Shown here: positions 2,245-62,604 of the stretch, one piece after another
Position numbering within the stretch: position 1 is the stretch's first letter
Layout: each line of letters begins with the position of its first letter
Source of the DNA: Watersipora subatra
Lineage: Eukaryota; Bryozoa; Gymnolaemata; Cheilostomatida; Watersiporidae
Assembly (NCBI RefSeq): GCF_963576615.1
Contig: NC_088714.1
Coordinates: forward strand, 28,764,558 to 28,828,557
Direction: 5' to 3'
DNA: 64,000 bases
Program-made: the position numbers and the translations under genes
The notes under the pieces: generated by a model
What the model was told of the DNA's origin: nothing
What the model saw: the letters and a program-made list of their open reading frames with translations, nothing else
Databases searched by the model: none

Positions 2245-4040
2245 AATATAAGTTAAATAGCTTTTACATATGTGAAAGGTATATCGCTATAAGATACAAG
2301 TTGTATAGTTTCATGCAACCTTCTGACTAGTATATAAATTATAGTTGTTAAGTAACAATAACAGATAAATAAGTTATAGCAACCTACTAAATAATATATA
2401 AATAGCAGCAGCCTCTTAAATAATATATAATTCATAGCAGCCTCCTAACTGATATATAAATAGTAGCTACCATCTAAATGAAACTCAAATTATAGCAAAC
2501 TCTTACGTGATCTATAAGTCATAGCAACATCTTAAATTCTATGTAACCCATAGCAACCTCTGCAATGATATGTAAATTATAGCAACCTCATAAATGATAT
2601 ATAAATAGCAGCAGCCTCCTAATTAATATATAATTCATAGCAGCCTCCTAACTGATATATAAATAGTACTGTAGCTACCAACTATATGAAATTCAAATTA
2701 TAGCAGACTCTTAGTTGATCTAGAAGTGATAGCAACATCCCAAATTATGTGTAACCCATGGCACCTCTGCAACGATATGTAAGTTATAGCAACCTCCTAA
2801 ATGATATATAAATAGCAGCAGCCTCCTAATTAATATAAAATTTATTGCAGCCTCCTAACTGATATATAAATAGTAGCTACCAATTATATGAAATTCAAAT
2901 TATAGTAAACTCTTATGCGAACTATAAATCATAGCAACATCCTAAATTATATGTAACTCATAGCAACCTCTGCAATGATATGTAAGTTATAGCAACCTCC
3001 AAAATGATGTAAAAATAGCAGCAGCCTCCTAATTAATATATTATTCATGGCAGCCTCCTAACTGATATATAAATAATAGCTATCAACTATGGAAAAATGA
3101 AATTATAGCGAGGTCTTAGGTGATCTATAAGTGATAGCATCATCCTAAATTATATGTATCTCATAGCAGCCTCTGCAATGATATGTAAGTTATAGCAACC
3201 TCCTAAATGATATATAAATATCAGCAGCCTCCAAATTAATATAAAATTCATTGCAGCCTCCTAACTGATATATAAATAGTTGCTACCAACTATATGAAAT
3301 TCAAATTATAGTAAACTCTTATGCGATCTATAAGTCATAGCAACATCCTAAATTCTATGTAACTCATAGCAACCTCTGCAATGATATTTAAGTTATAGCA
3401 ACCTCCTAAATGATGTAAAAATAGCAGCAGCCTCCTAATTTATATATAATTCATAGCAACCTTCTAAATGATATATAAATAATAGCTATCAATTATGGAA
3501 AATTCTAATTATAGCAAGGTCTTAGGTGATCTATAAGTGATAGCACCATCCTAAATTATATGTATCTCATAGCAGCCTCTGCAATGATATGTAAGTTATA
3601 GCAACCTCCTAAATGATATATAAATATCAGCAGCCTCCTAATTAATATTAAATTCATTGCAGCCTCCTAACTGATATATAAATAATAGCTATCAACCATG
3701 GAAAATTCAAATTATAAAAAGGACTTAGCTGATTTATAAGTGATAGCAACATCCTAAATTATATGTAACTTATGGCAGCCTCTGCAATGATATGTAAGTT
3801 ATAGCAACCTCCAAAACAATTTATAAATAGCAGCAGCCTCCTAAATAATATATAACTTATAGCAGCCTCCTCACTGATATATAGATAATTGCTACCAACT
3901 ATGTGAAATTCAAATTATAGCAATTTCTCAAGTGATCTATAAGTTATAGCAACATACTTTATTATATGTAAATCAGAGCAGCCTCTCAAAGACATAAGTT
4001 ATAGCAAACTCCTAAATGATATAAAAGTTACGACAAATTA
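2245..4040. repeat. higher-order satellite, 203-bp period of about 29-bp subunits
   Basis: The basic subunit is close to ATAGCAACCTCCTAAATGAT plus ATATAAGTT, 29 bases. About seven subunits form a higher-order unit. The landmark TGCAATGATA (with variants) starts at 2561, 2768, 2971, 3174, 3377, 3580 and 3783, so the spacing is 207 and then repeatedly 203. A degraded eighth occurrence lies near 3985. Subunits within a period differ more than the same subunit between periods, which defines a higher-order repeat. The short open frames inside it are incidental. Confidence 0.9.
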
Positions 4041-8218: not shown

Positions 8219-10857
8219 ATGAAATGGACTCGGACTGATAACACAGACCTCATGCAGTGCTACTTTATGAGTGAACCTCCAAAATGGGGCTATATGGGAA
8301 AGAAGCGTCAACTGTGGATAAGCATGTGCCCTGAATTGCCACTAACAGCAATGCAACTTGTAGCTCAGAAAAGTAACATAATCAAGCAGCACCTCATATC
8401 AGAACTTGAGGTAGATGAAATTAGGAAACAGTTCACCCAAGTAACCTCGACCAACTAGGAGTGCATATTAACACACATCGTCACACATAAACGATTTTGT
8501 GTTGACACACAAGTTGAAGAAGACGTGCACTTTGACCTTGACCTAAGGGTGAAGGAGCTTGTGGAAAATATCATCAACAATATGCCAGCTGCTAATGATT
8601 ATGGAAGCTGGGTACCACTACGGAGAGTTAGCAAGACTATACCCAAGAAGCTGTTAGAAGACATTAACTTGGCACTGGAGTCGATCTCAACTGAATCGAT
8701 CAGTGAGACTAATGCGTTAATTTACAGTACGGCAACCGTCGTCTTGGAGGAGATGGGTATTTAGCCACTGCCAACAAGGCTTCAAACCATTCCATCTTAG
8801 CAGCTGAGGCTGCAAAATAAGATAAAAGACTTGCGCAAGAAAGTTAGTACATTGTAGGCTCAGTGAAAGATCTAACCACAGTTTGGAGCGTCCAAAAAGG
8901 GAAGCCACAATAGAAGCTTTAGAATCTGCCAAACAGCAGCTAATAGCACTCTCGGCACAACTGAAGCGGTACACCAAAGAGCGGGATAACAAGAGATTGA
9001 ACAAACTGTTCATCAATAATCCATCTAAGGTGTATTCTCAGTTCAAAGGTGAACTGCGGAGGCCAATGTCAGATCCTCCCCGATCCAGTACCTCAAATTT
9101 CTGGAAGGACATCTGGGAGAAAGAGACTACTAATAACACCACTGCAAATTGGCTGAAGAGGCTTAAAGAGAGCCACAAACACACTGTGGCTGAGCAAGGA
9201 CTCACCATCAGCGAAGTGGACATCAAGTGCAGAGTGCAGCGTATGAAGAACTGGGCAGCATCTGGCCATGACATGATTCAAGCCTTCTGGTTGAAGAAAT
9301 TGACATCACTTCACACTAGAATGGCTAAGAAGATGGAATGCCTAATAGAACAAGGCAACCATTCGAAATGGCTGACCAAAGGACGAACTGTACTTCTGAT
9401 AAAAGATCCAAAGCAGAGGCCGATTCCCAAGAACTATCGACCAATAACGTGCTTGCCCACCACATGGAAACTGCTCTCAGGAATAGTTGCAGACAAACCG
9501 GAAGAGCTCATGAGTCACTATATGACCAGCGCTCAGAAAGGAATTGGGTGCAACACCCGAGGAGTCAAACATCAGTTACTGGTGGACCAGACGGTCTGTC
9601 AAGACAGCAGGAGAAGGCATACCAATCTTGCCATGGCTCGGATCGACTACAAAAGGCCTATGACTCAGTTCCCAATAGTTGGATACATGAGTGCCTCAGT
9701 ATGTACAATGTTTACCCTGCTCTTGTGGCATTCACCAAGATGTCAATGACCAAATGGAAGACGGAACTGGAGGCTAATGGCAAAAAGCTAGCGAGTGTAA
9801 AAATTAAGCAAGGCATCTATCAAGGTGACTCCTTATCACCGCTGCTCTCCTGCATATGCCTAAACCCTCTAAGCAATATGCTGGAGAAGATTCGCTATGG
9901 GTACCAGTTTAAGAGTGGCACCAACATAAACCACCTCTTCTACATAGATGACATCAAGCTGTACGCTAACAAACAAAGAGACATTGACTCGCTAACACAC
10001 CTTACTCAGGTATACAGCAAGGACATCGGAATGACCTTCGGTACTGAGGAATGAGGAAGGCTAATTTTTAAGAAAAACCATTCTATGCTCACAGATGGCC
10101 TAAGAATGCCAAATGGTACCATTAAAGATATAAAAAAAGGGTACAAGTACTTGGGGATTATGCAAAGCAACATCCACGATGAAGCCGAGGTATGTCACAA
10201 AGCCATTACTGAATACAAGAAATGCCTTCAGCAGGTCTTGTGGTGCCAGCTCAATGCCAAGAACCAAGTCATGGCAATAAATACCTACGCACTGCCAGTA
10301 ATAAGATATCCATCAGGCATAATAAAGTGGACTGAGGAAGCCATCAAGGAAACAGATTTAGCAACTCGTAAACTGATGACCATGAATGGAGCACTCCACC
10401 CAAAATTTGATAATACTAGATTGTATCTCGATAGGAAAGATGGTGGTAGGAGACTCAAAAGTGTACAGCCGACAGTGAAGGAGAAAGAGCACAGCATCAA
10501 AGCCTATGCAGCCTCTATGGCCACTTCAGATAAGCTGCTAGCTGAATTTCAATCGGCTGCTCTTACAATGACCTTCGCCCTGATGATGAGGAAATTGACT
10601 GGCACACGAAACCTCTTTATGGCGCTTACCACCGACAAATATTTAAGGTTGGCGATCTTCACCAGACATATATGTGGCTGAACAAAGGAAACCTAACGGC
10701 CAATACAGAGTCGCTAATCATGGCAGCCCAGGAGCAAGTGCTCCCAACAAGGCAACTCCAAACAAAAATCTATCACACTAGGGACGATCCTAGATGCAGA
10801 CTGTGCAAAGATGCACCTGAGACCATCCAACACATCATCAGTGGATGCAAGTGGATG
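8219..10857 (+). pseudogene. decayed pol of copy A: reverse transcriptase and zinc knuckle
   Basis: The frame starts MKWTRTDNTDLMQCYFMSEP, a segment shared with copy B, and is broken by a stop near 8458, a gap to 8525, a stop at 8762 and frameshifts near 9560 and 9660. RT hallmarks are WLTKGRTVLLIKD and PKNYRPITCLPTTWKLLSG (9360-9480), the first catalytic region in a shifted frame (AYDSVPNSWIHECLSMY, about 9655-9710), KQGIYQGDSLSPLL (about 9805-9845), and the catalytic FYIDDIKLYA at about 9938-9967. The thumb continues to about 10540. A knuckle CRLCKDAPETIQHIISGC (10795-10848) precedes the break. Because of the stops it cannot make a full protein. A full copy would nick target DNA and reverse transcribe its own RNA. 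Confidence 0.8.
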
Positions 10858-10946
10858 TATATAAAAATTGTTTCCTCAACCAGGTTAACCCATATGGGTG
10901 GTAATTTCTGCTCTAACTCGTGTCTACTACCAAAGACTTCAGAGTT
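10858..10946 (-). mobile_element. solo antisense 3' end of the R4/Dong-like family
   Basis: Reads ATTGTTTCCTCAACCAGGTT then ACCCATATGGGTGGTAATTT, the reverse complement of the 3' terminus seen at 43600-43682 (copy C), 36484-36575 (copy B) and 60297-60390 (copy D). It is about 90 bases long, points against copy A and separates it from the hAT pseudogene. It is either a very short 5'-truncated insertion or the product of a rearrangement. Confidence 0.75.
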
Positions 10947-11540
10947 GCTGACAGCAGCAGACAACATCAATGCATTAAAAGAAAAACTTTAGCTGTGGGA
11001 TAGCTGTGTGGGCAAGGGAAAATTTAATTCTTTTCCTAAATAAAGTGCTGGAAAATAAAGACGAAAGTGCTCTTGATTGACTATCGGAGAGTACATTATC
11101 TCTGGCCATTTGGTTGCTCTGAGAGATGAATTCTGTAAATACTTTCCTAAATTAGATGCCAACAAAAAAATTTTTCAGAATTTAGCTAAAGACCCATACA
11201 AGCGGTGTGTTGAGAAAGTTCCTGCGGAGCACATAGAATAATTTTTGAAGTTGTACAATGATTTTACTATGAAAGATGAATTTGGAGCTAAATCAGTGGA
11301 AGAACTCTGGCTTGCAGCCAGACTAATGTATCTAAACACCAGCTATGAAGCATTAAAAATGTTTGTACAGTTCTCATCTACATATTCATGTGAAGCTGGC
11401 TTCTCAACTTTAGTCAGCATAAAGACAAAGGTAGAAACAATCTTGATGTAGCTGCTGACTTAAGATGTGCACTTAAGATCTCACACTACACCAAACATAC
11501 CAGAGCTAGCAAAAAATAACCAGCAGCAGAGACTCCAATA
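10944..11540 (+). pseudogene. hAT transposase C-terminal remnant (ZBED5-like)
   Basis: Three frames read LTAADNINALKEKL, then SGHLVALRDEFCKYFP, then DEFGAKSVEELWLAARLMY and FSSTYSCEAGFSTLVSIKTK, followed by a shifted LDVAADLRCAL and TPNIPEL. The order matches the hAT C-terminal dimerisation region of ZBED5-like proteins, where a Y-x-C-E-x-G-F-S motif is typical. Stops at about 10990 and 11240 and at least two frameshifts show it is dead. The N-terminal BED finger and catalytic region are absent. Confidence 0.7.
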
Positions 11541-12683: not shown

Positions 12684-15600
12684 CTGCAAAAGAGAAAAAA
12701 AATGTTTCTATGATTTATGATAATTCCAACATGAAAAATAAACGTTAAAAATAAGACTAGGAAGACGGCAAAAAGCTCGACCAATGAGTTTAGGATATGA
12801 GTGTTCTCGGAAATTTTAGTTTCAATGATTTTACAACTGGTTGAAATCGTTTTTTGCGCCAAAAGTTACATTTTGGAGTTCTCTTCTCATGAATTATATG
12901 ATAAATTGCTACCATAGAAATTCATTCGAATCCTACTTAGTTTTTCGACAGATATAAAACTAGCATAGCTGAGTCATTAGGTACTCACCCGCTTCATTTT
13001 TTCCATAAATTTGTCGACAGACAAATACTTGCTTCCCTTTCTCACGGTGCTGGAGCCCAAGAAGGTAAACTTCAGCAGCTGGCCAAACTTCTTGGCGTCG
13101 CCAAACTCGATGTCCCCAATGTAAAATACTGCCAGAAGTTTTAGCAGGACGAGAGGGTCCTCACTAACGCTTAACTTTTCCCCATCCACACAGAGTTTCC
13201 CAAATTTGAGGTGGGGAAGAGAATGGCTTACCTAAAACAGTAAAAAGTAAGTCAGATTGGAGCCGAAACCAGTCCAGCCAATTTATGACGTCAACAACAT
13301 GCCTATAGAAACATCCTAATAACCTCTAACACGCTGAGTTGGAGTTGCGAACCCATAGCCGGGCTAATGTATGACGTCAACAACATTCCTATAGAAACAT
13401 CCTAATAACCTCTAACACGCTGAGTTGGAGTTGCGAACCCATAGACGGGCTAATGTATGACGTTAACAACATTCCTATAGAAACATCCTAATAACCTCTA
13501 ACACGCTAAGTTGGAGTTGCGAACCAATAGACGGGCTAATGTATGACGTCAACAACATTCCTATAGAAACATCCTAATAACCTCTAACACGCTAAGTTGG
13601 AGTTGCGAACCCATAGACGGGCTAATGTATGACGTTAACAACATTCCTATAGAAACATCCTAATAACCTCTAACACGCTGAGTTGGAGTTGCGAACCCAT
13701 AGACGGGCTAATGTATGACGTTAACAACATTCCTATAGAAACATCCTAATAACCTCTAACACGCTAAGTTGGAGTTGCGAACCAATAGACGGGCTAATGT
13801 ATGACGTTAACAACATTCCTATAGAAACATCCTAATAACCTCTAACACGCTGAGTTGGAGTTGCGAACCAATAGCCGGGCTAATGTATGACGTTAACAAC
13901 ATTCCTATAGAAACATCCTAATAACCTCTAACACGCTAAGTTGGAGTTGCGAACCAATAGTCAGGCTAATGTATGACGTTAACAACATTCCTATAGAAAC
14001 ATCCTAATAACCTCTAACACGCTGAGTTGGAGTTGCGAACCAATAGCCGGGCTAATGTATGACGTTAACAACATTCCTATAGAAACATCCTAATAACCTC
14101 TAACACGCTAAGTTGGAGTTGCGAACCCATAGACGGGCTAATGTATGACGTTAACAACATTCCTATAGAAACATCCTAATAACCTCTAACACGCTGAGTT
14201 GGAGTTGCGAACCCATAGACGGGCTAATGTATGACGTTAACAACATTCCTATAGAAACATCCTAATAACCTCTAACACGCTAAGTTGGAGTTGCGAACCA
14301 ATAGACGGGCTAATGTATGACGTTAACAACATTCCTATAGAAACATCCTAATAACCTCTAACACGCTAAGTTGGAGTTGCGAACCAATAGCCGGGCTAAT
14401 GTATGACGTTAACAACATTCCTATAGAAACATCCTAATAACCTCTAACACGCTAAGTTGGAGTTGCGAACCCATAGACGGGCTAATGTATGACGTTAACA
14501 ACATTCCTATAGAAACATCCTAATAACCTCTAACACGCTAAGTTGGAGTTGCGAACCAATAGACGGGCTAATGTATGACGTTAACAACATTCCTATAGAA
14601 ACATCCTAATAACCTCTAACACGCTAAGTTGGAGTTGCGAACCCATAGACGGGCTAATGTATGACGTTAACAACATTCCTATAGAAACATCCTAATAACC
14701 TCTAACACGCTAAGTTGGAGTTGCGAACCAATAGACGGGCTAATGTATGACGTTAACAACATTCCTGTATAAACATCCTAATAACCTCTAACACGCTAAG
14801 TTGGAGTCGCGAACCAATAGTCAGCCTAATGTATGACGTTAACAACATTCCTATAGAAACATCCTAATAACCTCTAACACGCTGAGTTGGAGTTGCGAAC
14901 CAATAGTCAGCCTAATTTATGACGTTAACAACATTCCTGTATAAACATCCTAATAACCTCTAACACGCTAAGTTGGAGTTGCGAACCAATAGTCAGCCTA
15001 ATGTATGACGTTAATAAGTTACCGAACTAAGAAATCCACTCACTTTGTGTTCGGGTGTTTCGGCCAGCATCTTTTTGTCTCCAAGGCGCTTTCCAATCAC
15101 GATCACCAGTTTCTCAAATCCATAATCATTCGCTGCAAACAAAGTATTTTTGTTATATTTAAACTTTTTTTGACTACACACTACCAGGTAAGACCTCCAA
15201 CAATAGAGACTAGTTCTTGTTTAAGCTGCTGCACATGTAAAGCATTGGAATGGAAAATAGGGTGAGACAAACTCCGTAGATTACTATTATCGTGAGGTAA
15301 AAAGCCAGTAATACTGACTAAAATCATGGGCACCCGACTCCGACTTATATCATTTTGGCGGTTGATATTATTTTGATAATTGAGCCGTTGCTAGCGCATA
15401 AAGTAACATATTGTTCTGCAAAGAAAGTACGTAAATTTGAAGATAATAAATACACTTACGATTAGTCTCTTTTGGACATGCAGCCATGAACAAATCCTCT
15501 GCTCGCTTTCCCAACGCGTCCAAATCCAAGTCCCGATTCAGAAGGAGCTCAAGCTCAGGTATAAGCTAACAAGCAATAAAAAAATAAGCAACTTCAAAAT

Positions 15601-36160: not shown

Positions 36161-36319
36161 TAAAAGATTACTAACTACTAGTTTTTTTCGTTGAATTTTT
36201 GAAAGCAACATCATAAAAGCCATTCATAATTGTCTCAGGATAATAGTAGTTCCTTGTTTGTATATGTATATATGCATATATATAGTGAAGTTGTTATGTG
36301 CAACCTCTATATGTATGGA

Positions 36320-36338
36320 CATATACATACATATATAC

Positions 36339-36433
<95 letters not shown>

Positions 36434-36482
36434 CATACACATACACATATACATATACATGTATACATATATATACATATAC
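36320..36482. repeat. (TA)n / TACATA microsatellite at the 3' end of copy B
   Basis: Long TA tract directly abutting the 3' terminus of copy B. Confidence 0.93.
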
Positions 36483-36483
36483 A

Positions 36484-37822
36484 AGGTTGTTTCCTCACCC
36501 CGGTTAACCTGTATGGGTGGTACTTTCTGCTCTAACTCAGGTCTCCTACCAGAGACCTGGGAGTTTGAGCACTCGCCTCAAGATCTTAGCTGTTCTTAAT
36601 AGCGCACTTTTCTGCAACTCACCTGAGTTGATTGCTGTTGGTATCTGGGCAAGCCACAGTTTATGCGCCGGTGTTATAGCGCCCATTGCCAAAATGACTA
36701 CTGGAATTACAGTTGTTCTCACATCCCAGCATATTTCAATCTCTTCTCCAAGAGAGAGATATTTCTCGACCTTTTCTTTTTTTTTCGCTGGCTATATTGT
36801 AGCCATTGGGTACTGCTATATTCATTATAGTAGCTCTCTTCTTCTCCTTGTCCATCACCACTATATCGGGTTGGTTTGCTAGGACAAGCTTGTCAGTCCG
36901 GATGTAGAAGTCCCAGAGAATATTAGCGCAGTCATTTTCATTGACCTTACCAGGAGCTTTCCACCAGTGTTGTGGTTTATTAAGGCCATATTCATCACAT
37001 AGACTTCTATACACCACACCTGTGACATGATTATGCCGCTCAGTGTATGCATTTTCTGCTAGCTGTTTGCATCCACTGATGATGTGTTGGATTGTCTCAG
37101 GGGCATCTTTGCACAGTCTGCATTTAGGATCATCTCAAGTGTGATAGATTTTTGTTTGGACTTGCCTTGTTGAGAGAACTTGCTCCTGGGCTGCCATGAG
37201 TAGCGACTCTGTATTGGCTGTTAGGTTTCCTTTGTTTAGCCACATATATGTCTGGTGAAGATCGCTAACCTATTGAGTCCCCTACCGCCATCTTTCCTAT
37301 CGAGATACAATCTAGTAGTATCAGACTTTGGGTGGAGTGCTCCATGCATGGTCAGCAGTTTACGAGTTGCTATATCTGTTTCATTGATGGCTTTCTCAGT
37401 CCATTTCATTATGCCTGCTGGATATGTTATTACTGGCAGCGCGTAGGTATTTATTGCCATTACTTGATTCTTGGCATTGAGCTGGCTCCGTAGGACCTGC
37501 CGAAAGTGTTTCTTGTATTCGATAATGGCTTTGTGACGTACCTCGGCTTCGTGGTTGATGTTGCTTTGCATAATCCCCAAGTACTTGTACCCTTATTCTA
37601 TATCTTTGATGGTACCATTTGGCATTTTTAGGCCATCTGTGAGCATAGAATGGTCTTTCTTAAGAATTAGCCTTCCACATTTCTCAATACCGAAGGTTAT
37701 TCCGATGTCATTGCTGTATACCTGAGTAAGGTGTATTAGTGAATCAATGTCCTTTTCTTTGTTAGCGTACAGCTTGATGTCATCTATGTAGAAGAGGTGG
37801 TTTATCTTGGTGCCACTCTTAA
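36484..37822 (-). mobile_element. R4/Dong-like copy B, 3' half
   Basis: On the minus strand this continues copy B after the piggyBac insertion: SGTKINHLFYIDDIKLYANK (catalytic RT motif, about 37758-37817), the thumb (37236-37580), then the restriction-like endonuclease. The segment WWKAPGKVNENDCANILWDF leads to the nuclease core ANQPDIVVMDKEKK and a downstream IAVPNGYNIAS. The final D of the P-D-x(14)-D motif reads N here (MNIAVP). A frameshift lies near 36740 and a premature stop near 37610. The terminus CCGGGGTGAGGAAACAACC meets the microsatellite at 36484. Confidence 0.75.
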
Positions 37823-40732
37823 CCCTTTTTTGCATGACGTCCTCATGTGAGGACAAAATACTACATCCAATTTTTAAACTTAAAAATTAGAATTTGTTTC
37901 TCCTTGTATCGTTCAATCAATATTCTACAAATTGCTCTCTCTTGTTGTACTGTTATTGAGGTCATAGCAAGTAAGTCAAGGTCTGGAGGGAAATTTGAAG
38001 TCAGGCAGCCGTGCAAAAGGTGAGTATGCTAATTATCAGTGATTCTTTTGCTATTTCTTCAGTTCCTCTTCTTTTTAGAAAAGTGTCTTTTTTCTGAGCT
38101 TGTTCAGTCTTTTAGGTAAATGATTGAACCATAACAATGTTGTTCAAATGCTTGTAAAACTTTCAAAGTGGCTTAAATGAATTGTCCCCATTTGAGGACA
38201 TCATGCAATAACTGAATGAAAATTTCCTTATACACAGTCTTCATTAGAAATTTTGTTGATAATAAAACTCTGCATTTTGTTAGTCTTGCTAAAGTTTCTG
38301 CATCTCTCAACTATGAGTATTCAGCGCTCCAGAAAAGCAGCCTTTGAAGCATTTTAGTCTATTTTATGCTCAGACTCTGAAGATGGCTATATTTCATCAT
38401 CAGGTGACTGCAGTGATTTTGACGCAGACTACAATGTGATTGCTCTAGAGGAACAGGTTAGCGATGACTCTGACTGGGAAAGCTCCGCAAACACTTTTAG
38501 TTTGAGCAGTGGAAAGTTCTATGGCAACAGCAGTTTGAGTTCTGTCTGTTCTCTGCCTTCTTAACCTTCTATCTCAGCCGTTGCAACAACTCCTTTGCCA
38601 CAGAAGAGAAGAAAAGCGGCCGTTGCATCGACTTCTTGTTCTTCAGCATCTACTTCAGCTGCAGCTTTACAGGATCAAATGTGTAAGACACCACCAGTTG
38701 CTAACTCTACATATTCAACATTTGGTCGAAACAAAGCAATACCATCAACCATTATCAAAGCATCAACTAGTTGGACAATCAACACTGACAACGACTATGC
38801 GCATAACGAACCTGTCTTTACTGGTAAACTTCAAGTAAACCTTGCAAATACTGAAACACCAGTCAATATATTCAAGCATTTTTTTGACAATGACTTGCTA
38901 GATGGCATTGTGTATAACACAAATCTGTACGCCTCGCAGGTAAGCATCCACTCTGCATTCAATCTTACAAGAGGAGAACTTATGGTATTTTTGGGAATAA
39001 ACATTGTGATCACCTACATAAGATATCCAAGATTACGGATGTATTGGTCCAGCAACCAAGGAACTCGATGTGGATTGATTGCTGATGCAATGAGTGTCAA
39101 TAGATTTGAAGCCATACGCCGTCACCTTCTCTTTGTAGATAATGAAAAGCATGATGCAAACTCTACTGATAAAGTATGGAAGCTGCGCTCTGTGATGGAA
39201 GCTCTTCGAAAAGGTTTCTAACAAGTGTAGATGCTGAAGAATGTCATAGTATTGATGAGCAGATGGTTCCTTTCACTGGCCAGGGTGGTCTAAAGCAATA
39301 TATCAAGAGTAAGCCAAAGAAATGGAGTTACAAAATATGGGTGAGATCAGGTATGTCAGGCTACGCAAAATAATCATAATCAACGTTTATGACTTTGAAT
39401 GTATCAAGGGGCAAGCGGTAATAGACCTGAAAAAGTCCTGGGACTGAGGCCAGATGTTGTGATGCGGTTATCAGACCGTTTGGCTGGCAAGAACTACAAG
39501 ATTTACTTTGACAACTTGTTTACAACGTTGGAACTGTTGACCGAGCTAAAGAAGAAGAAGATATATGCTGTTGGCACTCTCCGCAAAAACCGGCTATGCG
39601 GCGCAGATGAGGTTTTGATTTGTGATAAAGGTATGAGAACAAGAGGAAGTGCTACCTATGCTACCAACAAAGACAACATCACCATTGTGAAGTGGAATGA
39701 TAACAATCTTGTCTACACTGCAAGCACATTTGTTGGCATGCAACCAACCAGCGTAGTACAACGATGGGACAAAAAAGCAAAGAAGCATGTGGATGTTATC
39801 AGGCCTCGTGCTATTGAAGTCTATAACAAACATATGGGAGGAGTAGATTTAACAGATTTTCTGATTTCATGCTACAGGCACAGCCTGAAGCACAAGCGTT
39901 GGTATTTACGTCTGTTTTTTTGCCTTGTGAATGTCACAATTGTGAATGGATGGCTGATCCATCGCTGGGAACATGGAGACAGCGTTGACTTGCTTGAGTT
40001 CCGCAGCTCTGTGGCACAAGCGCTAATCACACAAGGCTGGACAAAGTCAAATCAAAGAAAAGGAAGGCCGTCAAGCTCATATGTACACCCTCTTAGTCTA
40101 ACAAACATCAGAACGAGGGTATCAGATGAGATCAGGTAAGCAAAGTGATCATTATGAAGTTTTCAATTACTGAATAGTATTGAGTTTACTAATAATTTTA
40201 GTAAGAGTAATAGTTTATTCATTTATTTTAAAATTTTCACTTGTAAAAATGTTTATTTAGTCAACATGTGCCTATTGCTATAATCCTACAGCTTAAAAGC
40301 TCGCAATTTTCACAACACTGGTTGAATCACTTTAGATACAACCTTGATGCTGGACACTGGCCAGAAAAGTCAGCTATGAAATTTGCAAGCCGATGTGTTG
40401 TTCCAACCTGCCCCAGCAAAACCAGATACTTGTGCACAATGTGCAAAAAAGCTCTCTGCCCAGAGTGCTTTGGAGCATATCATACCAAGTGACTTTGTCT
40501 GACTACAGCCTATATTGCAACCAACCAACTGTTGTTTGTCCTCATATGAGGTCAGAGCGCATTGTTTCATAACTGCATGGCGTCCTCATATGAGGACATT
40601 ATTTTTTACATATGTATAAGGTGAGGTGGAATTAAAATAATAAATGTTTTGTGTATTTTGTGTGTAAATGTGCAGTTTTTGCTTGCTTATTCTCCTCTAG
40701 CTCAATGGCAGCTATATTCATGCAAGAAAGGG
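37823..40732 (+). mobile_element. piggyBac-family DNA transposon inserted in copy B
   Basis: The left end is TTAA (37819-37822) followed by CCCTTTTTTGCATGA. The right end read on the minus strand is CCCTTTCTTGCATGA, flanked by ATAA (40733-40736), a one-base change from the expected TTAA. CCC-starting ends and TTAA targets are diagnostic of piggyBac. Subterminal palindromes GTCCTCATGTGAGGAC (about 37840) and GTCCTCATATGAGGAC (about 40580) sit inside both ends. Element length is 2910. Removing it restores a continuous R4/Dong-like RT frame (GYQF then KSGT). Confidence 0.92.
38313..40492 (+). pseudogene. piggyBac transposase, inactivated
   Basis: From ATG 38313 (MSIQRSRKAAFEAF) the frame holds an acidic Ser/Asp-rich N terminus, a TAG at about 38355, a TAA at about 38562, then a long frame from 38595 through ETPVNIFKHFFDNDLLDGIV to 39221. 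A frameshift near 39215 moves to HSIDEQMVPFTG (first catalytic Asp region), and another break at 39370-39400 precedes YKIYFDNLFTT (second Asp) and NKHMGGVDLTD (third). An intron-like GTAAGC..TTTAG at 40136-40260 joins a C-terminal Cys-rich finger (CVVPTCPSKTRYLCTMCKKA then CPECFGAYH). The catalytic residues survive but the stops and shifts make it non-functional. Confidence 0.88.
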
Positions 40733-42440: not shown

Positions 42441-43682
42441 GTACGTCACAAAGCCATTACCGAATACAAGAAACGCCTTCGGCAGGTCTTACGGAGCCAG
42501 TTCAATGCCAAAAACCAAGTCATGGCAATAAATACCTACGCGCTGCCAGTAATAAGATATCCAGCAAGCATAATAAAGTGGACTGAGGAAGCCATCAAAG
42601 AAACAGATATAGCAACTCGTAAACTGCTGACCATGCATGGAGCACTTCACCAAAATCTGATACTACTAGATTGTATCTCGATGAGAAAGATGGCGGTAGG
42701 GGACTCAAAACTGTACAGCAGACAGTGAAGGAGGAGGAGCAAAGCATCAAAGCATATGCAGCCTCCATGGCTACTTCAGATACGTTGCTAGCTGAATTTC
42801 AATCGGCTGCTCCTATAAAGGACTTACGCACTGATGATGAGGAAATTGACTAACACACGAAACCTTTTCATGGTGCTTGCCACCAACAAATATCTAAGGT
42901 TGGCGATCTTCACCAGACATATATTTGGCCGAACAAAGGAAATTTAACAGCCAATACAGAGTCGCTAATCATGTCAGCCCAGGAGCAAGTGACTCCAACA
43001 AGGGACTCCAAACCAAAATCTATCACACTAGAAACGATCCTAGATGCAGACTGTGCAATGATGCACCTGAGACCATCCAACACATCATCAGTGGATGCAA
43101 GCAGCTAGCAGGAAATGCATACACTGAGCGGCATGATCATGTTGCAGGTGTTGTGTATAGAAGTCTATGTGATGAGTATGGCCTTAATAAACCACATCAC
43201 TGGTGGGAATTGCTCCTGGTAAGGTCAATGAAAATGACTGCGCTAAGATCATCTGGGACTTCTACATCCGAACTGACAAGCATGTCCTAGCAAACCAGCC
43301 AGATATAGTGGTGGTAGACAAGGAGAACAAGAGGGCTACTATAATAGATATAGCAGTACCCAATGACTACAATATAGCCAGCAAAGAAAAAGAAAAGGTG
43401 GAGAAATATCTCCCTCTTTGAGAAGAGATCAAAAAATGCTGGAATGTAAGAACAACTGTAATCCCAGTAGTCATTGGGGCACTGGGCGCAATAACACCGG
43501 CGCCTAAATTGTGGCTTGCCCAAATACCAACAGCAATCAACTCAGGTGAGTTGCAGAAAAGTGCATTAGTGGGAACAGCTAAGATCTTGAGGTGAGTGCT
43601 CAAACTACCAGGTCTCTGGTAGGAGACCCGAGTTAGAGCAGAATTACCACCCATACGGAGTATCCGGGGTGAGGAAACAATT
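42441..43682 (+). mobile_element. R4/Dong-like copy C, 5'-truncated
   Basis: Begins inside the RT thumb (GTACGTCACAAAGCCATTAC) and runs to the family 3' terminus GGGGTGAGGAAACAATT at a short (TA)n. Frames give MAINTYALPVIRYPASIIKW (42522), CRLCNDAPETIQHIISGCKQ (about 43047), and the best preserved nuclease region: DFYIRTDKHVLANQPDIVVV, then DKENKRATIIDIAVPNDYN. That is P-D, fourteen residues, then D, the restriction-like endonuclease signature. A stop near 43420 and a frameshift near 43205 disable it. Head-to-head with copy B. Confidence 0.8.
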
Positions 43683-47857: not shown

Positions 47858-47894
47858 ATTTTTGTTTATAATATAAGCATAAAAATGTAGATTT

Positions 47895-50784
47895 ATGGAT
47901 ATGTACATAACATGCACTGATTATGATCTTGATAAACTTGATACTTCTTCACCTAACTCTTTGACTATTCTGAACGCTAATATTAGAAGTTTGCGGAGGA
48001 ATTTTTCTCATCTTGAATCTATTGTGTACAGCACTAGTAAACCAATTGATATAATATGTCTTACTGAAACTTTTATATATGATCATGAAATATCTTTCTA
48101 TTACCTGGATGGTTATATATTTTTAGGTGTTCAATGTGAGACAAGAAGTGGTGGTGTCGGAGTCTACCTCCGCAGTGGCATTGCTGGTGGGGTGGCTGGC
48201 GTCGCAGTTGAGTTGGCCGGAACGGAGGCTGTCACTTTCACTGTCAGAGGTGGGGTTGTTGGCATGTTTCAGACTGGTCTTACCATGACGGTAGTTTACA
48301 GGCAGCCCAGTGCTAGTATTGGTGACTTTTTGCATGGCCTGGACAACTATCTTCAATCTATATCACCTTCATCTAATCATATTATGGTAGGAGATATTAA
48401 CATAAATACTCTTGAAGAAAGTCATACCTCTTCAGAATATTTAAATATTCTTTCTAACTATGCGTTTGTAAACGTGATAAATATTTCTACAAGAATAAAT
48501 ACGTGTCTGGACCATATTAACATTAATTTTCATAACCACATTATTGTGTCAGGCACGTTGTATGCACCATTAAGTGATCATCTACCAACTTTCATTAACA
48601 TTGATAGCCCTTCGCGTTTTTTGAATGTTTTTGACAGCACAAGCTTTTCATTCCAGGATTACAAAAAGTTTAATGAGAACTCGTTTTTGAGAGATTTGGC
48701 AGACCTTGACTGGAACCATTTGTTAAACAACCAATTAACACTAGATGAAAATTATGATACCTTCTTACAAAGTTTGTTACATATTTGTAATACTCATGCA
48801 CCCAATAAATCTTTTAACTCGCAGTCACAGGCGAAACACCAAAAGAGAAAAGCGTGGATTACAACAGAGGTTTTAGACTTGATAAAAAGAAAAAAATATC
48901 TATATCGCAGAACATTAAATTCTCCGTTAAACGTGAAATTAATAAATAAATACAAAAAAATTAGGAACAACCTAACAACAGCTCTACGGCTTTCTAAATT
49001 CAAATATTTTGAAGAGAAGCTTAAGGCTGCCTCTAATGATAAACACTTATGGAATATTGTTAATCAAGAATTAGGAAAAAGCACTGTAACATCACCGGTG
49101 CCTAAATTAATTATTGACGATCGAAACCAGGTTTTAGAAGATGAAAAAGGTATTGCCGACCATCTCAACAGTTATTTTGTAAATGTTGGACCCAACTTAG
49201 CTAAAGCGTTTGGTAATACCTTTCAAGAAGAAAAAATACTATGGCAAAGTAATCTGTCAAGTCCAGAGTTTCAATTTAAAAAAGTTGATAGCACTGAGGT
49301 GAAAGCATATTTGCAAGATTTAAATATAAAAAAGCTACCGGCTTAGATAATATTCCAGCAAAGTTATTAAAGCTTGCTTGTTCCTCCATTTGCAATCCTT
49401 TGACAAAATTAATTAATGAATCTTTAGAAATTGGCCAAATCCCAAAAGCTCTTAAAATAGCTAAAGTAAAACCTTTATTTAAAAAAGGCTCAGTAAAGCT
49501 TTGTTCAAAATATCGGCCTATTTCAATACTGCCTGTCATAAGCAAAATACTGGAAAAGACCGTGAACACACAAATAATGCAATATTTAGAAAGTAATAAT
49601 TTGATTCATGAAAACCAGTTTGGATTTTGGAAAAATAAAAACACAGCACTAGCTCTTACTCAATTCACAAATCAAATTTTAAAAGCATTTAATGATGGAA
49701 AATCCGTACTTGGAGTCTATCTTGATTTTAGTAAAGCCTTTGATAACCTTGATCACCAAACTTTTTTATATAAGCTGAAACAGCTAAAGCTTAGTTCAAA
49801 TTCTATTAAATGGGTGGAAAACTTTTTTTCTCAACGAAAGCAAGTCACCGTTATTGGACAATCTGTTTCTGATGAACTAAGCATTACATGTGGTGTTCCC
49901 CAGGGATCCATACTTGGCCCTACACTTTTTTAATTTATATTAACGATTTACCAAACATTTTAACAGTTTTTACTCCAATTTTGTATGCCGATGATACAAA
50001 CTTATTTTTAGAATCCAAAGACTTAGATGAGCAAATTTCTGCAGTAAATAATGAACTGAATGAAATCCAAAAATGGTGTACTATGAACAAACTAACATTA
50101 AATGTAGACAAAACAAACTTTATAATATTAAAAAACAATCAAAATAAATATGAATTCCCGAGGACCGCTTTAACTTTGCATGGTAAAATTTTAAACCAAG
50201 TCGAAAGTGTAAAATTTCTGGGTGTTCACATTGATACAAATTTATCATAGAAGGTTCACATAGAAACATTTTTTAATAGTGTTAGACCTTTGTTAGGACT
50301 CTTATATAAATGCTCAAGGTATTTACCCCACAAAATTTTGGTTTTAATTTACAACGCATTTATTCATTCTAAATTCAGTTACTGTATTGAGGCTTGGGGG
50401 AACGCCCCAGGTAAATACTTAAACAAACTTCAACTTCTACAAAAACGAGTTCTCAGGATTTTTCATAAAAAACCTAAATTAGAACACACCCGCCCACTTT
50501 TTCAAAAATCTTAAATTCTGACTGTGAATAAACTCTATAAATTTCGAACTCTCATCGCGTCTCAATTATTCCACAGCCTTAAATCACATCGCATTCATCA
50601 ATATCCCACGCGCTGCTCTTCCTTAAATCTAAAGCTACCTCCCTCTAAATCTGCTTCGGGTCATCGCAGAATGTCATACCAGCAGTCAGCACAATGGAAC
50701 GCTCTGCCTGATGAACTGCGTAGGGTTGTGAGTATGCCCACTTTTAGACATGCCCTCAAGCTGTACCTGTTGAGCGGTGACTAA
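47895..50784 (+). pseudogene. ORF2 (APE endonuclease and reverse transcriptase) of the CR1-like element
   Basis: The endonuclease domain has the ordered motifs TILNANIRSL (about 47960), ICLTETF (48055), SGGVGVYLR (48148), VVYRQPS (48293), VGDININ (48390) and LSDHLPTFI (48573), so the catalytic N, E, D and H positions are present. The RT has YRPISILPVISKILEKTV (49513), GVYLDFSKAFDNLDHQ (49708), CGVPQGSILGP (49890) and the catalytic LYADDTNLF (49981). The C-terminal segment includes KLQLLQKRVLRIFHK (50426). Breaks: a frameshift near 49335, another near 49928, TAG at 50248-50250 and TAA at 50512-50514. Restoring them is not attempted here. Confidence 0.88.
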
Positions 50785-50935
50785 ATAGTTTCTGGCTGCT
50801 TGCTGTTAACTTGTGGCCCAGCGCCTTGACTAGCAATGCTACTGCGCAGTTTGGGCCTCATCATTATTTCTTTTTTTTTCTTTTTTTTTCCTGTTTTCAT
50901 ATTTTTTATGAAATAAAACAAACAAACAAACCAGA

Positions 50936-57444: not shown

Positions 57445-57471
57445 CGCCAGTCTTTACAGTATAGTACACTT

Positions 57472-57752
57472 CGCTCTTTCCTCTTCAAGTTGTTTTTTAA
57501 TTTCTTCTGTACGCTGTTCAGCTTTCTCTTTAGCAACTCTTTCCTCAATCAACTTGCCATGTGCGTCGTTTTTGGCTTTATCTGCAAGAATAGCAGATAC
57601 TTCGGCCTCTTCAAGTTGTAGCTTTACCCTGTCCAGCTCTCCCTGAAGTTTTTGGTGTTGCGCAAAGTCTGCTGAAACTTTTTTTTGCACTTCAAGGGTC
57701 TTTTGTAAAGCACTTAGCTGGCTTGTCAGATTGTTTTTCTCTGCTGTTGCTC
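57472..57752 (-). CDS. terminal exon: coiled-coil protein ending in a CaaX box (GBP-like?)
   Basis: After a TTTTTTGCTTTTAG acceptor the minus-strand frame runs about 93 residues to TAA. It is a continuous charged helix with heptad spacing (LTSQLSALQKTLEVQKKVSA, then GELDRVKLQLEEAEVSAILA, then AEQRTEEIKKQLEEERAK) and ends C-T-I-L. A C-terminal Cys-aliphatic-aliphatic-Leu is a prenylation signal, with Leu favouring geranylgeranylation. A long helical tail ending in a CaaX box is the architecture of guanylate-binding proteins, so membership of that family is possible, but the GTPase exons are not in view. One leading base completes the previous codon. Upstream exons would lie above 57753, possibly beyond copy D. 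Confidence 0.6.
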
Positions 57753-58518
57753 TAAAAGCAAAAAATTTAGCTACTCAAGGATTCATCCGAAAACAGAATT
57801 TTGGATTATTTTTATGTTATGTAGCAAACAGTGACACTATTGCAGCTGCTACGTTAAAAATGGAGTGTTTATAAAATAACCAAATAAGCAGGGTAGTGAA
57901 ATTACGATAATATAGTCTTAATATCGTATGTTAAGTATAAGCTAGCTAAACTACAGATGTAGTTTGCCCACATCGTCATTCTCATTGCATGAGAGGCAAC
58001 ACTTCTGTTGGCAGACAACTTGCTGCCCGGTTTATAGTGAGCCTTAATAGAGAATATTCATGTTTTGCTTTTGAATAGTAATCTGATTTGAGGAAACTAG
58101 TAGGCAAGTTTTATTTTTTTATTTTTGTTTGGTCATTTATTTGTTTTTGCATTCTGTTCCTTAAAGAGCACACTTGGAAAGTGTTAAATAATGCAACTTT
58201 AGTTTTGAGGAACCATGCTTATGATGAAGTAAAATGAAATACATCAGTGAAGACCTTTCAAAGTTCCGCTTGCTATAATCAGCAAAAATTACATTTTAAC
58301 TATTGTATGGGCAGCTGTACGTAAAGGAAGCCTGAAAATTCCTTTACAGCACCACACCATGTATCTCAGATTAACTTTACAGTAGTAGTCAAAAGATATT
58401 TACATATATTATTATACAACATATTGTTTACATAGTTTTACAAATATAAATATTCATGACACAACACACACTCTTCGTATACATATATATATATTTGCAT
58501 GCACATATATTTATATAT
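57753..58518. other. presumed intron of the coiled-coil gene
   Basis: No exon seen. Small TA runs occur at 58479-58518, just left of the ribozyme element. Confidence 0.35.
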
Positions 58519-58693
58519 ATATACATGTACTCAAATCACAAAAGCGATGTGCAAAGCTCATCGCTTTTGTGATTTGAGCACTCTGGTGCCAGCACATTGA
58601 CTTTCTTAAAGTCTGTGAGGCAACCTAGTTGTTTCATGGCAGGAAGTCAACTCTCATTGGTAATGGGATTTGTGACCCTGGCCTAAGCTCTGA

Positions 58694-58739
58694 GCTGCAC
58701 TGATGAGGCTTCAATAGCCGAAACAGTACTGTCTGTAGC
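58694..58739 (+). ncRNA. type I hammerhead self-cleaving ribozyme, unit 1
   Basis: All core parts are present. Stem I is GCUGCA (58694-58699) with UGUAGC (58734-58739), six pairs including one G-U. CUGAUGA is at 58700-58706. Stem II is GGCU (58707-58710) with AGCC (58716-58719) and a UCAAU loop. GAAA is at 58720-58723. Stem III is A-C-A with U-G-U closing a GUAC loop. Predicted cleavage is after C58733, in a G-U-C context. The very short stem III is typical of the minimal type I motifs of metazoan retroelements, which often act as dimers. Confidence 0.92.
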
Positions 58740-58952
58740 ATGAGTATAGGCTCCCTCACTTCGGTTTGATTGAGCACTCTGTGAGAGGTGCGGCACTATT
58801 AGCCTTAGTGCAAAGCTCATCACTTTTGTGATTTGAGCACTCTGGTGCTAGTACATTGACTTTCTTAAAGTCTGTGAGACAACCTGGTTGTTTCATGGCA
58901 GGAAGTCAACTCTCATTGGTAATGGGATTTGTGTCCCTGGCCTAAGCTCTGA

Positions 58953-58998
58953 GCTGCACTGATGAGGCTTCAATAGCCGAAACAGTGCTGTCTGTACC
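58953..58998 (+). ncRNA. type I hammerhead ribozyme, unit 2
   Basis: The same core, with CUGAUGA at 58959-58965, stem II GGCU/AGCC, GAAA at 58979-58982 and cleavage predicted after C58992. Stem I is GCUGCA with UGUACC, one C-C mismatch, and the stem III loop reads GUGC. It is probably weaker than unit 1, but every invariant core base is kept. Confidence 0.88.
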
Positions 58999-59015
58999 AT
59001 GAGTATATACATGTA

Positions 59016-60290: not shown

Positions 60291-60358
60291 TGTAAAAAAT
60301 TGTTTCCTTCCTCCGGTTAACCCATATGGGTGGTAATTTCTGCCCTAACTTGGGTCGC

Positions 60359-62604
60359 CTACCAGAGACCTGGGAGTTTGAGCACTGGCCTCAAAGTTTT
60401 AGCTGTTCCCAATAGCACACTTTTTCTTTTTTCTTTGATTGCTGCCGGTATCTGGGCAAGCCACATTTCATATGCAGGTTTTATTGTGTCCAGTACCCAG
60501 TTGACTACTGGAATTACAGTTGTTTTGACATCCCAGCATCTTTTCATCTTTTCTCCAGGAGGCAGATAATTCTCTACCTTTTCTTTTTCTTTGCTTGCTA
60601 TATTGTAGTCATTGGGTACTGCTATATCTAATATAGTAGCCCTCTTGTTCTCCTTGTCCACCACCACTATATATGGTTGGTTTGCTAGGACAAGCTTGTC
60701 AGTCCGAATGTTGAAGTCCCAGAGGATCTTAGCGTGGTCAATCTCATTCACCTTACCAGGAGACTCTCACCAGTGCTGGGGTTTATTAAGGCCATACTCA
60801 TCACTTACATTTTCACACACCACCTGCAACATGATTATGCCATCAGGGTATGCGTTTCTGGCAAAATGCTTGCATCCACTGATGATGTGTTGGATGGTAT
60901 CAAGTGTATCTTTGCTCTGTCTGCATCTAAGACCGTTTTTAGTATGATGGATATTTTATTTTATTTTATTAATTGCCATGACATGATTTCTGGCATTGAG
61001 CTTGCTTCGTAGGACCTGCCGAATGCGTTTCTTGCATTTGGTAATGGCTTTGTGACGTACTTCGACTTCGTGGTTGATGTTGCTGTGCATAGTCCCTAAA
61101 TACTTGTACCCTTTTTCTATATCTTTGATAGTACCATTTGGCATTCTTAGGCCATTTGTGAGCATAGAATGGCCTTTCTTGAGAATTAGCCTTCCACATT
61201 TCTTAATACCGAAGGTCATTCCGATATCCTTGCTGTATACCAGAGTAAGGTGTATTGGCGAATCAGTGCTTCTGTCCTTCTTACCATAGAGCTTGATGTC
61301 ATCCATGTAGAAGTGGTGGTTTATTTTGGTGCCCCTCTCAAGCTGGTACCCATATTGAGTCTTCTCCAAAATATTATTTAGAGGGTTTAGGCATATGCAG
61401 AAAAGAAGCAGTGATAAGGAGTCACCTTGATAAATGGCTCGCTTAATTTTTACACTCGCCAGCTTTTTGCCATTAGCCTCCAGTTCCGTCTTCCATTTGG
61501 TCATTGACATCTTGATCAACATCACAAGGGTCGGGTCAGGTAAACATTGTACAACCTTAGGCACTCAAGTATCCAACTATAGGGAATTGAGTCATAGGCC
61601 TTTTTTGTAGTCAATCCAAGCCATGGCGAGATTGGTATGCCTTCTCCTGCTGTCTTGACAGACCGTCTGTTCTGCCAGTAACTGATGTTTGGCTTCTCAA
61701 GTGTTTCATCCAATCACTTTCTGAGAACTGGTCAAATAGTAACTCATGTGCTCTTCCAGTTTGTGTGCAACTATTCCCGAGATTAGTTTTCAGATGGTAG
61801 GCAAGCATGTTAATGGTCAATAGTTCTTGAGAATCGGTCATTGAGGTGGGTCTTTCCTAAGAAGTACAGTTCGTCCTATGGTCAGCCATTCTGGATGGTC
61901 ACCTTATTCTATTAGGCATTTCATTTGCTTTGCCATTGTAGTGTGAAGTGATGTCAATTACTTCAACCAGAAGTCTTGAATCATGTCAGGTCCAAGTGCT
62001 GCCTAGTTCTTCATATGCTGCACTCTGCACTTGATGTCAACTTTGCTGATGGTGAGTCCCTGCTGAGCCACAGTGTGTTAAGAGCTCTTTTGGAGCTTCT
62101 TTGACCACTTTGCAGTGGTGTTATGAAAAGCCTCTTTTTTCCCAGATGTCTTTCCAGAACTTTGAGGTGCTGGATTTGGGAGGATCTCGCATCGGCCTCC
62201 TTATATCACCTTTGTACTGGAAATACACTCTTTTGATGAATTATTGGTGAACATTTTGTTCATTCTTGTATTATTCTGCTGTTTGGTGTACTGTACCGCT
62301 TCAGTCATGCCAAAAATGTTACTAGCTGCTGTTTGGCAAATTCTAGATCTTCCATTGTGGCTTCCCTTTTTGGATGCTCCAAACTGTGGTTAGATCTCTC
62401 ATTGAGCCTACTAGCTTTTTTGCGCAAGTCATTGATCTTATTTTGCAACCTCCTCTGCCAAGACGGAATAGCTTGAAGCCTTGTTGACAGTGGCTTAATA
62501 CCCAAATCGTCTAATACGACGGTTGTTACACTGTAGATTAGGGCATTAGTTTTGCTGGTCAATCCCATTGAGATCGAATCCAGCGCCAAGTTAATGTCTT
62601 CCAA
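60359..62604 (-). pseudogene. decayed pol of copy D
   Basis: The N-terminal linker at 62305-62604 (MEDINLALDSISMGLTSKTN) is followed by broken frames, then the RT block 60956-61564 (MTKWKTELEANGKKLASVKI, AIYQGDSLSLLLFCI, and the catalytic FYMDDIKLYG). The endonuclease frame 60359-60751 has ILWDFNIRTDKLVLANQPYI then DKENKRATILDIAVPNDYN: the first catalytic Asp of P-D is replaced by Tyr. It continues to the family C-terminal LKLPGLW. Stops and the internal deletion make it non-functional. Confidence 0.78.

Follow-up and report, generated by a model that had tools for sequence, protein, structure and literature searches.

The window, by which we mean the whole stretch of 64,000 nucleotides of Watersipora subatra that was analysed, contains on its plus strand a retrozyme copy of 474 bp with two hammerhead ribozymes (HHRs), bordered on both sides by the same short direct repeat. 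Long interspersed elements (LINEs) and tandem arrays lie elsewhere in the window. Coordinates refer to the window, and the features were as follows, with Penelope-like elements abbreviated as PLEs.

58530-59003, plus strand: retrozyme copy of some 1.7 units (259 nt each), with a short inverted 5' piece
58518-58529, no strand: left copy of TATATACATGTA, probable target-site duplication, in low-complexity surroundings
59004-59015, no strand: right copy of TATATACATGTA, then (TA)n
58527-58581, plus strand: 5'-terminal inverted fold-back whose arms (58527-58552, 58556-58581) are 92% complementary
58687-58745, plus strand: first hammerhead, predicted cut after C58733, by direct reading and structural descriptor
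58687-58690 (GCTC) and 58742-58745 (GAGT), plus strand: outer stem I of the first hammerhead
58694-58699 (GCTGCA) and 58734-58739 (TGTAGC), plus strand: inner stem I of the first hammerhead
58700-58706, 58707-58719 and 58720-58723, plus strand: CTGATGA, stem II and GAAA of the first hammerhead
58946-59004, plus strand: second hammerhead, CTGATGA at 58959-58965, predicted cut after 58992
58734-58992, plus strand: predicted 259-nt monomer RNA between the cuts
58745-58778, plus strand: candidate module TATA-GCTC-spacer-TTGAGCACT, common to PLEs, with its TATA where copies end
58833-58844, plus strand: second TTGAGCACTCTG of the unit, with its counterpart in the partial unit at 58574-58585
8826-10992 (plus), 36224-37592 (minus), 42898-43680 (plus) and 60300-61564 (minus): pieces of R2-like LINE
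47883-50930, plus strand: APE-type LINE with a (CAAA)-like tail, used as control
2370-4023: tandem array with a unit of 203 bp, 8 copies, 85% matches
13280-15014: tandem array with a unit of 86 bp, 20 copies, 97% matches

Two R2-like LINE 3' ends of the window were seen to pass into TA repeats, and two long frames at 38565-40139 (plus strand) resembled a piggyBac-type transposase by eye. An earlier note on this DNA had taken the surroundings of the element for an intron, with a coiled-coil gene on the opposite strand; the open reading frame at 57454-57774 had no Pfam match, none of 15 candidates scored E≤0.001, and a coiled-coil gene with an intron was not confirmed.

Direct reading bore out the two hammerhead cores of that note, with predicted cuts after 58733 and 58992, 259 nt apart and equal to the tandem period. 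Two 200-nt stretches of the copy are 96% identical at the same distance of 259, and each unit carries CTGATGA, a four-pair stem II (GGCT-TCAAT-AGCC), GAAA and, at the cut, GTC; stem III is short and reads ACAGTACTGT in the first unit and ACAGTGCTGT in the second. In the first unit, the six pairs of stem I are followed, beyond an internal loop, by an outer helix of four pairs. This outer helix makes the hammerhead, earlier called minimal, a canonical type I form whose stem III is short. In the second unit TGTACC replaces the consensus TGTAGC (C58997), which leaves a C.C mismatch in stem I. A structural descriptor (stem I ≥5 bp, CUGANGA, stem II ≥3, GAA, stem III ≥3, UH) found one site in the 64-kb window, the first unit, with stems of 6/4/4 pairs, and no sites in 60 Markov-1 windows searched on both strands. 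The second unit, with its C.C mismatch, fails this descriptor; of the two ribozymes, both called complete in the note, the first is intact.

The family-model search proposed in the note found the cores below threshold. No Rfam entry was detected within the window at the gathering threshold, and a permissive Rfam search of 751 bases returned HH9 with 21.2 bits at 58683-58755 (gathering 52) and Hammerhead_3 with 18.1 bits at 58946-58988 (gathering 48.5), both scores being lower than many chance matches to other families. Single-strand folding of 66-nt ribozyme pieces was no better than that of shuffles (z -0.19 and -0.82), and the minimum-energy fold puts part of the ribozyme core into other pairs. 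The circular fold of the consensus reached -90.9 kcal/mol, with a z of -5.3 relative to 60 mononucleotide shuffles. GC of the element is 0.46, i.e. below 50%. The list of open reading frames (90-aa minimum) held no frame inside the 474 bp, coding for a reverse transcriptase (RT) or GIY-YIG endonuclease being absent, and no long terminal repeat (LTR), primer-binding site, polypurine tract or coding region was noticed on reading the unit. A scan of the unit for Pol III boxes gave no A box and a single weak B-like match, which lies within the ribozyme.

For the genomic family, a 27-nt core was searched in the genome, whose published assembly is reported as 783.70 Mb in 11 chromosomes. It occurred at 2096 places with ≤2 mismatches, dispersed over chromosomes, and the reversed control at 0. 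Units were exactly 259 nt long in 80 of the 86 units of the first sample, which provides the further genomic copies of equal period that the earlier note had called for, and the core was intact in 132 of 148 units. Array sizes ranged from 0.13 to 15 units; in the 15-unit array the units differ little from each other. Two samples were read. Loci L009-L048 are the 40 that were scored among 1376 candidates, and they favour window-like copies because the query contained the 3' end. Loci L049-L099, on parts of chromosomes 1 and 2, were selected for an exact core among the first 100 of the 2096 places, following their order along the genome.

The 3' ends of copies lie some 16 nt beyond the cut (TGTAGCATGAGTATAT), with (TA)n next to them. 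Of the 53 arrays in the position-ordered sample, for which ends played no part in the choice, 43 stop at unit position 16, seven at positions 9-14, and three continue into a further unit (90, 251, 259); this count includes L082-L085, near-duplicates of L081. Elements shorter than one unit (30 of 88) have the same 3' end and target. The 5' ends are scattered, with peaks at unit positions 71-80 (18 of 88) and 1-20 (18 of 88). The former peak is the foot of a predicted second hairpin, where several loci carry fold-back copies of the end, and the latter may reflect whole-number turns or annealing of TATAT to the target. Inverted 5' matches of at least 8 nt were found in 10 of 88 elements, against 4.0 in swapped controls; the longest (26, 18 and 16 nt) are clear, and fold-back ends, once considered a general rule, are thus occasional. 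That of the window copy (58527-58581) is a probable self-primed cDNA end. At one locus (L042), two retrozyme copies were found with their 3' ends facing each other over a short palindromic TA tract. Truncated 5' ends together with a common 3' end at (TA)n suggest target-primed reverse transcription.

Runs of TA of at least 8 nt were present within 60 nt on the 3' side of 91% and on the 5' side of 74% of 88 elements, with a background of 2.4%. Since the 5' flanks are also TA-rich, the (TA) run is mostly target. That the (TA)n was instead made at the 3' end during insertion, by slippage on UAUA, would agree with the excess of runs on the 3' side and with some elements that have a non-TA 5' flank, but it is rather improbable given that the majority of 5' flanks are TA-rich as well and that several copies are located within the TA tail of a LINE. 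A 12-bp duplication flanks the window copy; in (TA)n, duplications are ambiguous for most other copies.

Selection on the ribozyme was assessed by separating changes found in only some units of an array, taken as post-insertion, from changes found in all its units, taken as already in the template. Fixed (template) changes numbered 1/2683 in the HHR and 133/7554 in the body (50 arrays, L082-L085 left out), and later changes 60/7535 and 106/20955, respectively (Fisher 4e-17 on events and 2e-8 on distinct alleles). Without four odd arrays, fixed changes were 1/2482 versus 113/7020. The 48-nt main part of the ribozyme had 0 fixed variants and 52 later changes. Once inserted, the ribozyme accumulates changes no more slowly than the body, and several arrays have lost G12 at its CpG. 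Because the search for arrays used the core and tolerated up to 5 substitutions, sampling favours intact cores; later core changes are nevertheless present in the same arrays, and the sample not chosen by exact core agrees (fixed 1/1954 versus 86/6032; 6e-5 on distinct alleles). This is strong evidence, from sequence comparison, that the ribozyme decays after insertion and that having an intact ribozyme is associated with use as a template. The retrozyme reading of the earlier note is upheld by copy number, unit length, the 12-bp end duplication and this selection, and the family is almost certainly a retrozyme with a functional ribozyme.

Ordinary satellite DNA with a chance hammerhead-like stretch would have the exact period, and unequal crossing-over also homogenises the units of one array. 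This explanation is nonetheless scarcely credible, as it is contradicted by the dispersal of copies over chromosomes and by the 3' end and target shared among elements of less than one unit; moreover, the ribozyme is conserved between arrays and not within them, and random sequence gave 0 descriptor matches. Concerning the template, even 0.13-unit copies span the cut site, so the template kept the cut junction whole. Concordance at diagnostic sites within arrays was 98.8%, compared with a mean of 79.4% in 200 shuffles, and divergence was 0.71% within and 5.02% between arrays (54 arrays). The units of one array carry the same variants, and each insertion therefore represents one monomer sequence. 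A few same-site, same-unit differences recur in at least two arrays, and these are mostly CpG, polymorphic sites and the duplicated loci L081-L085. A circle copied several times round would be the simplest explanation of this homogeneity, and we consider a circular template very likely. If a uniform array were instead transcribed into a linear multimer that stayed uncut, tandem copies spanning the cut site would equally result, and HHR mutants of the anole PLE left in vitro insertion unaffected in the results reported in PMC11167929. Such a template is improbable, however, because it leaves ribozyme retention in templates unexplained and predicts joint inheritance of old unit-specific differences, whereas within-array differences are rare (0.7%).

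Candidate helpers of the retrozyme were compared. A PLE RT query gave 135 scored matches among 891 candidates, many in frames of 400-820 aa, which rules out the absence of PLEs that the single genomic match to the Pfam GIY-YIG model (among 16 candidates) had suggested. Because of that single match, the PLE endonuclease was assigned by eye. The element at locus L160 has a GIY-YIG-like C-terminus by eye and a hammerhead of the minimal form in its pseudo-LTR, with stems of 4 (stem I), 4 and 3 pairs. PLE copies at L018, L019 and L059 end in GTTTATA joined to TA-rich DNA, at the point where L160 continues. Ten further copies were chosen from the 135 matches solely by RT-match position; nearly all are of one family, and L165, L168 and L169 come from one cluster. 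All ten end at a TATA site; its distance past the hammerhead cut is 49 nt in six (AGTATATA), 125 nt in three and 118 nt in the remaining one. Directly after nine of these ends stands (TA)n, and the tenth (L170) is followed by GTTATATATA. Hammerhead-like motifs unlike that of the retrozyme were also observed on the minus strand at L024 (about 1816-1853) and L052 (about 2572-2605); the former has a stem I of 10 pairs, with TATA..GCTC..TTGAGCACT and (TA)n downstream.

The first start site of the PLE is followed by GCTGCTCC, a spacer and GTTGAGCACT, and the retrozyme 3' end TATAT by GCTCCC, a spacer and GTTGAGCACTCTG. A module pattern, TATA-(0-8)-GCTC-(5-25)-TTGAGCACT, was drawn after these sequences were seen. 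It fits the retrozyme and three of three PLE families compared, i.e. L160, for which alone the protein frame was read, a second PLE in L018, and L049, the last two tied to L160 by similarity. In the window it occurs once, within the retrozyme, and in 100 Markov windows 0 times. Elsewhere in 332,010 sampled bases it was found in PLE-like stretches of L018 (two), L019, L024, L032, L049, L087, L106 and L167, of which L024, L032, L087 and L106 are tied to PLEs by the module alone, and in retrozyme pieces of L009, L015, L039, L061 and L090, where TA happens to precede the second hairpin. Both L018 copies, L024 and L049 have a hammerhead core upstream of the module. As GCTC can pair with GAGC, the module may form a hairpin beside the start site.

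Four nine-mers are common to the three PLE families, among them TTGAGCACT, of which the retrozyme has two copies; any of the four was present in 514 of 40,000 random circles, and 0 had one twice. Gapped local alignments of the retrozyme with PLE pieces were not significant, the score being reached by 50, 147 and 60 of 1000 shuffles. Special conservation of TTGAGCACTCTG was considered and rejected, as its first copy varies between arrays at 3 of 13 sites; the second copy varies at 0 of 13 (50 arrays, L082-L085 left out). For the unit block 86-114, conservation gave p 0.02 on events and 0.24 on sites. Start site, ordered module and target are common to the retrozyme and the PLEs of the same genome.

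The main rival to PLE mobilisation retains the same retrozyme and circle, with an R2-like LINE bearing a restriction-like endonuclease and ending in (TA)n as the helper. This LINE was initially taken as sole helper and was demoted once the PLE ends at TATA were read. A TA run of at least 8 nt lies within 40 nt of 36 of 40 LINE 3' ends (39 loci; background 1.8%), a count that used the 39 of 40 listed places lying outside the window and was separate from the biased set of retrozyme neighbours, and the APE-type LINE control had such a run at 0 of 20 ends (20 of 42 matches). Nine of 88 retrozymes lie ≤150 nt from an R2-like LINE end. The nearest LINE RT in the PDB was R2 (E 7e-8; LINE-1 0.035), zf-RVT scored below cut-off, and R2-type LINEs with a restriction-like endonuclease are described as often targeting microsatellites (PMC4640811). 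Against this helper, the LINE has no sense-strand module and carries the nine-mer in antisense only, its 3' region resembles the retrozyme no more than shuffles do, and window scans found no HHR in it. We regard the LINE as an unlikely helper and mobilisation by PLEs as the best-supported reading, and a probable one: the common initiation module and the common (TA)n landing site point to PLEs as the source of the enzyme, and the close likeness of units within each insertion indicates a circle.

Sequence comparison established the anatomy and copy number of the family, its 3' anchoring and target, the homogeneity of its units, the selection on its ribozyme and the module common to PLEs, and together these suggest the following course of events. 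The type I hammerheads would divide transcripts of tandem copies into 259-nt monomers, and these would be joined into circles. In published systems, circles are joined by tRNA ligase. A Penelope-like RT would recognise the circle's module, also carried by PLE RNA, in which a possible GCUC/GAGC hairpin, with UUGAGCACU at its end, comes after UAUA. Genomic (TA)n would be nicked, and the nicked strand would anneal to the UAUA and prime copying, which could stop before one turn of the circle was complete or continue for many. Copying of a circle from (TA)n would give the common 3' end, the 5' truncation, the location in (TA)n and the near-identical units. The inserted ribozyme would be free to decay, and only RNAs that still cut would become templates. 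The copy at 58530-59003 appears to be old, and its joint explanation as a self-cut circular retrozyme copied by a PLE at (TA)n is given a probability of roughly two in three (0.67). The genome makes the identity of the helper and the circle as template testable, and an in vitro PLE assay could use its defined RNA and target.

The Watersipora family was compared with metazoan non-LTR retrozymes as described by Cervera and de la Pena 2020 (PMC7229834), which have type I HHRs in repeats of 150-450 bp and, where target-site duplications are present, duplications of >4 bp. It resembles them in its type I HHR, its unit length, dimers to multimers, GC below 50%, no LTR noticed, non-autonomy, and HHR-bearing PLEs in the same genome. 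It differs from the retrozymes so described in the single dominant 3' end in (TA)n, the module common to PLEs and the bryozoan host. The type I hammerhead repeats of newt and axolotl (PMC7229834) share the short stem III with a palindromic loop; their units are about 330-350 nt, compared with 259 in Watersipora, where stem III is one or two pairs longer. In Watersipora, ACAGTACTGT is present in 134 of 148 units and could pair between two units. HHR-bearing PLEs have an internal RT start past the HHR cut and, as reported for the anole PLE by Frangieh et al. (PMC11167929), two start sites with a tail between them; the Watersipora PLE ends at 49 and at 125 or 118 nt match this pattern. PLEs with an HHR in the pseudo-LTR, as characterised in the same report, have in common with the retrozyme the apparent internal RT start beyond the HHR cut, paired start sites with an intervening tail, an AT-rich target and tandem copies. 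The retrozyme differs from PLEs in having no RT, and its HHR is of the canonical type I where that of the Watersipora PLE is minimal. The unit sequence is new to us, as judged from published descriptions. A literature search, mostly at title and abstract level, recognised no paper describing this target or module and found none combining bryozoa and a hammerhead ribozyme, and what we describe would be a family of metazoan non-LTR retrozymes that we did not find in print.

SINEs with a 3' end borrowed from a LINE are non-autonomous and carry the initiation signal of their helper. The retrozyme differs from these in that its RNA would be circular and self-cleaving, and in that the proposed helper is a PLE. 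We are inclined, with some reserve, to regard the retrozyme as standing to the PLE as the SINE stands to the LINE, i.e. as a circular ribozyme RNA with a PLE initiation module (UAUA and a hairpin, UUGAGCACU). Metazoan retrozymes are presented, in the relevant part of a review (PMC7761336), as having no conserved motif that identifies the helper. If the reading is true, the module common to the retrozyme and PLEs would be a motif of that kind.
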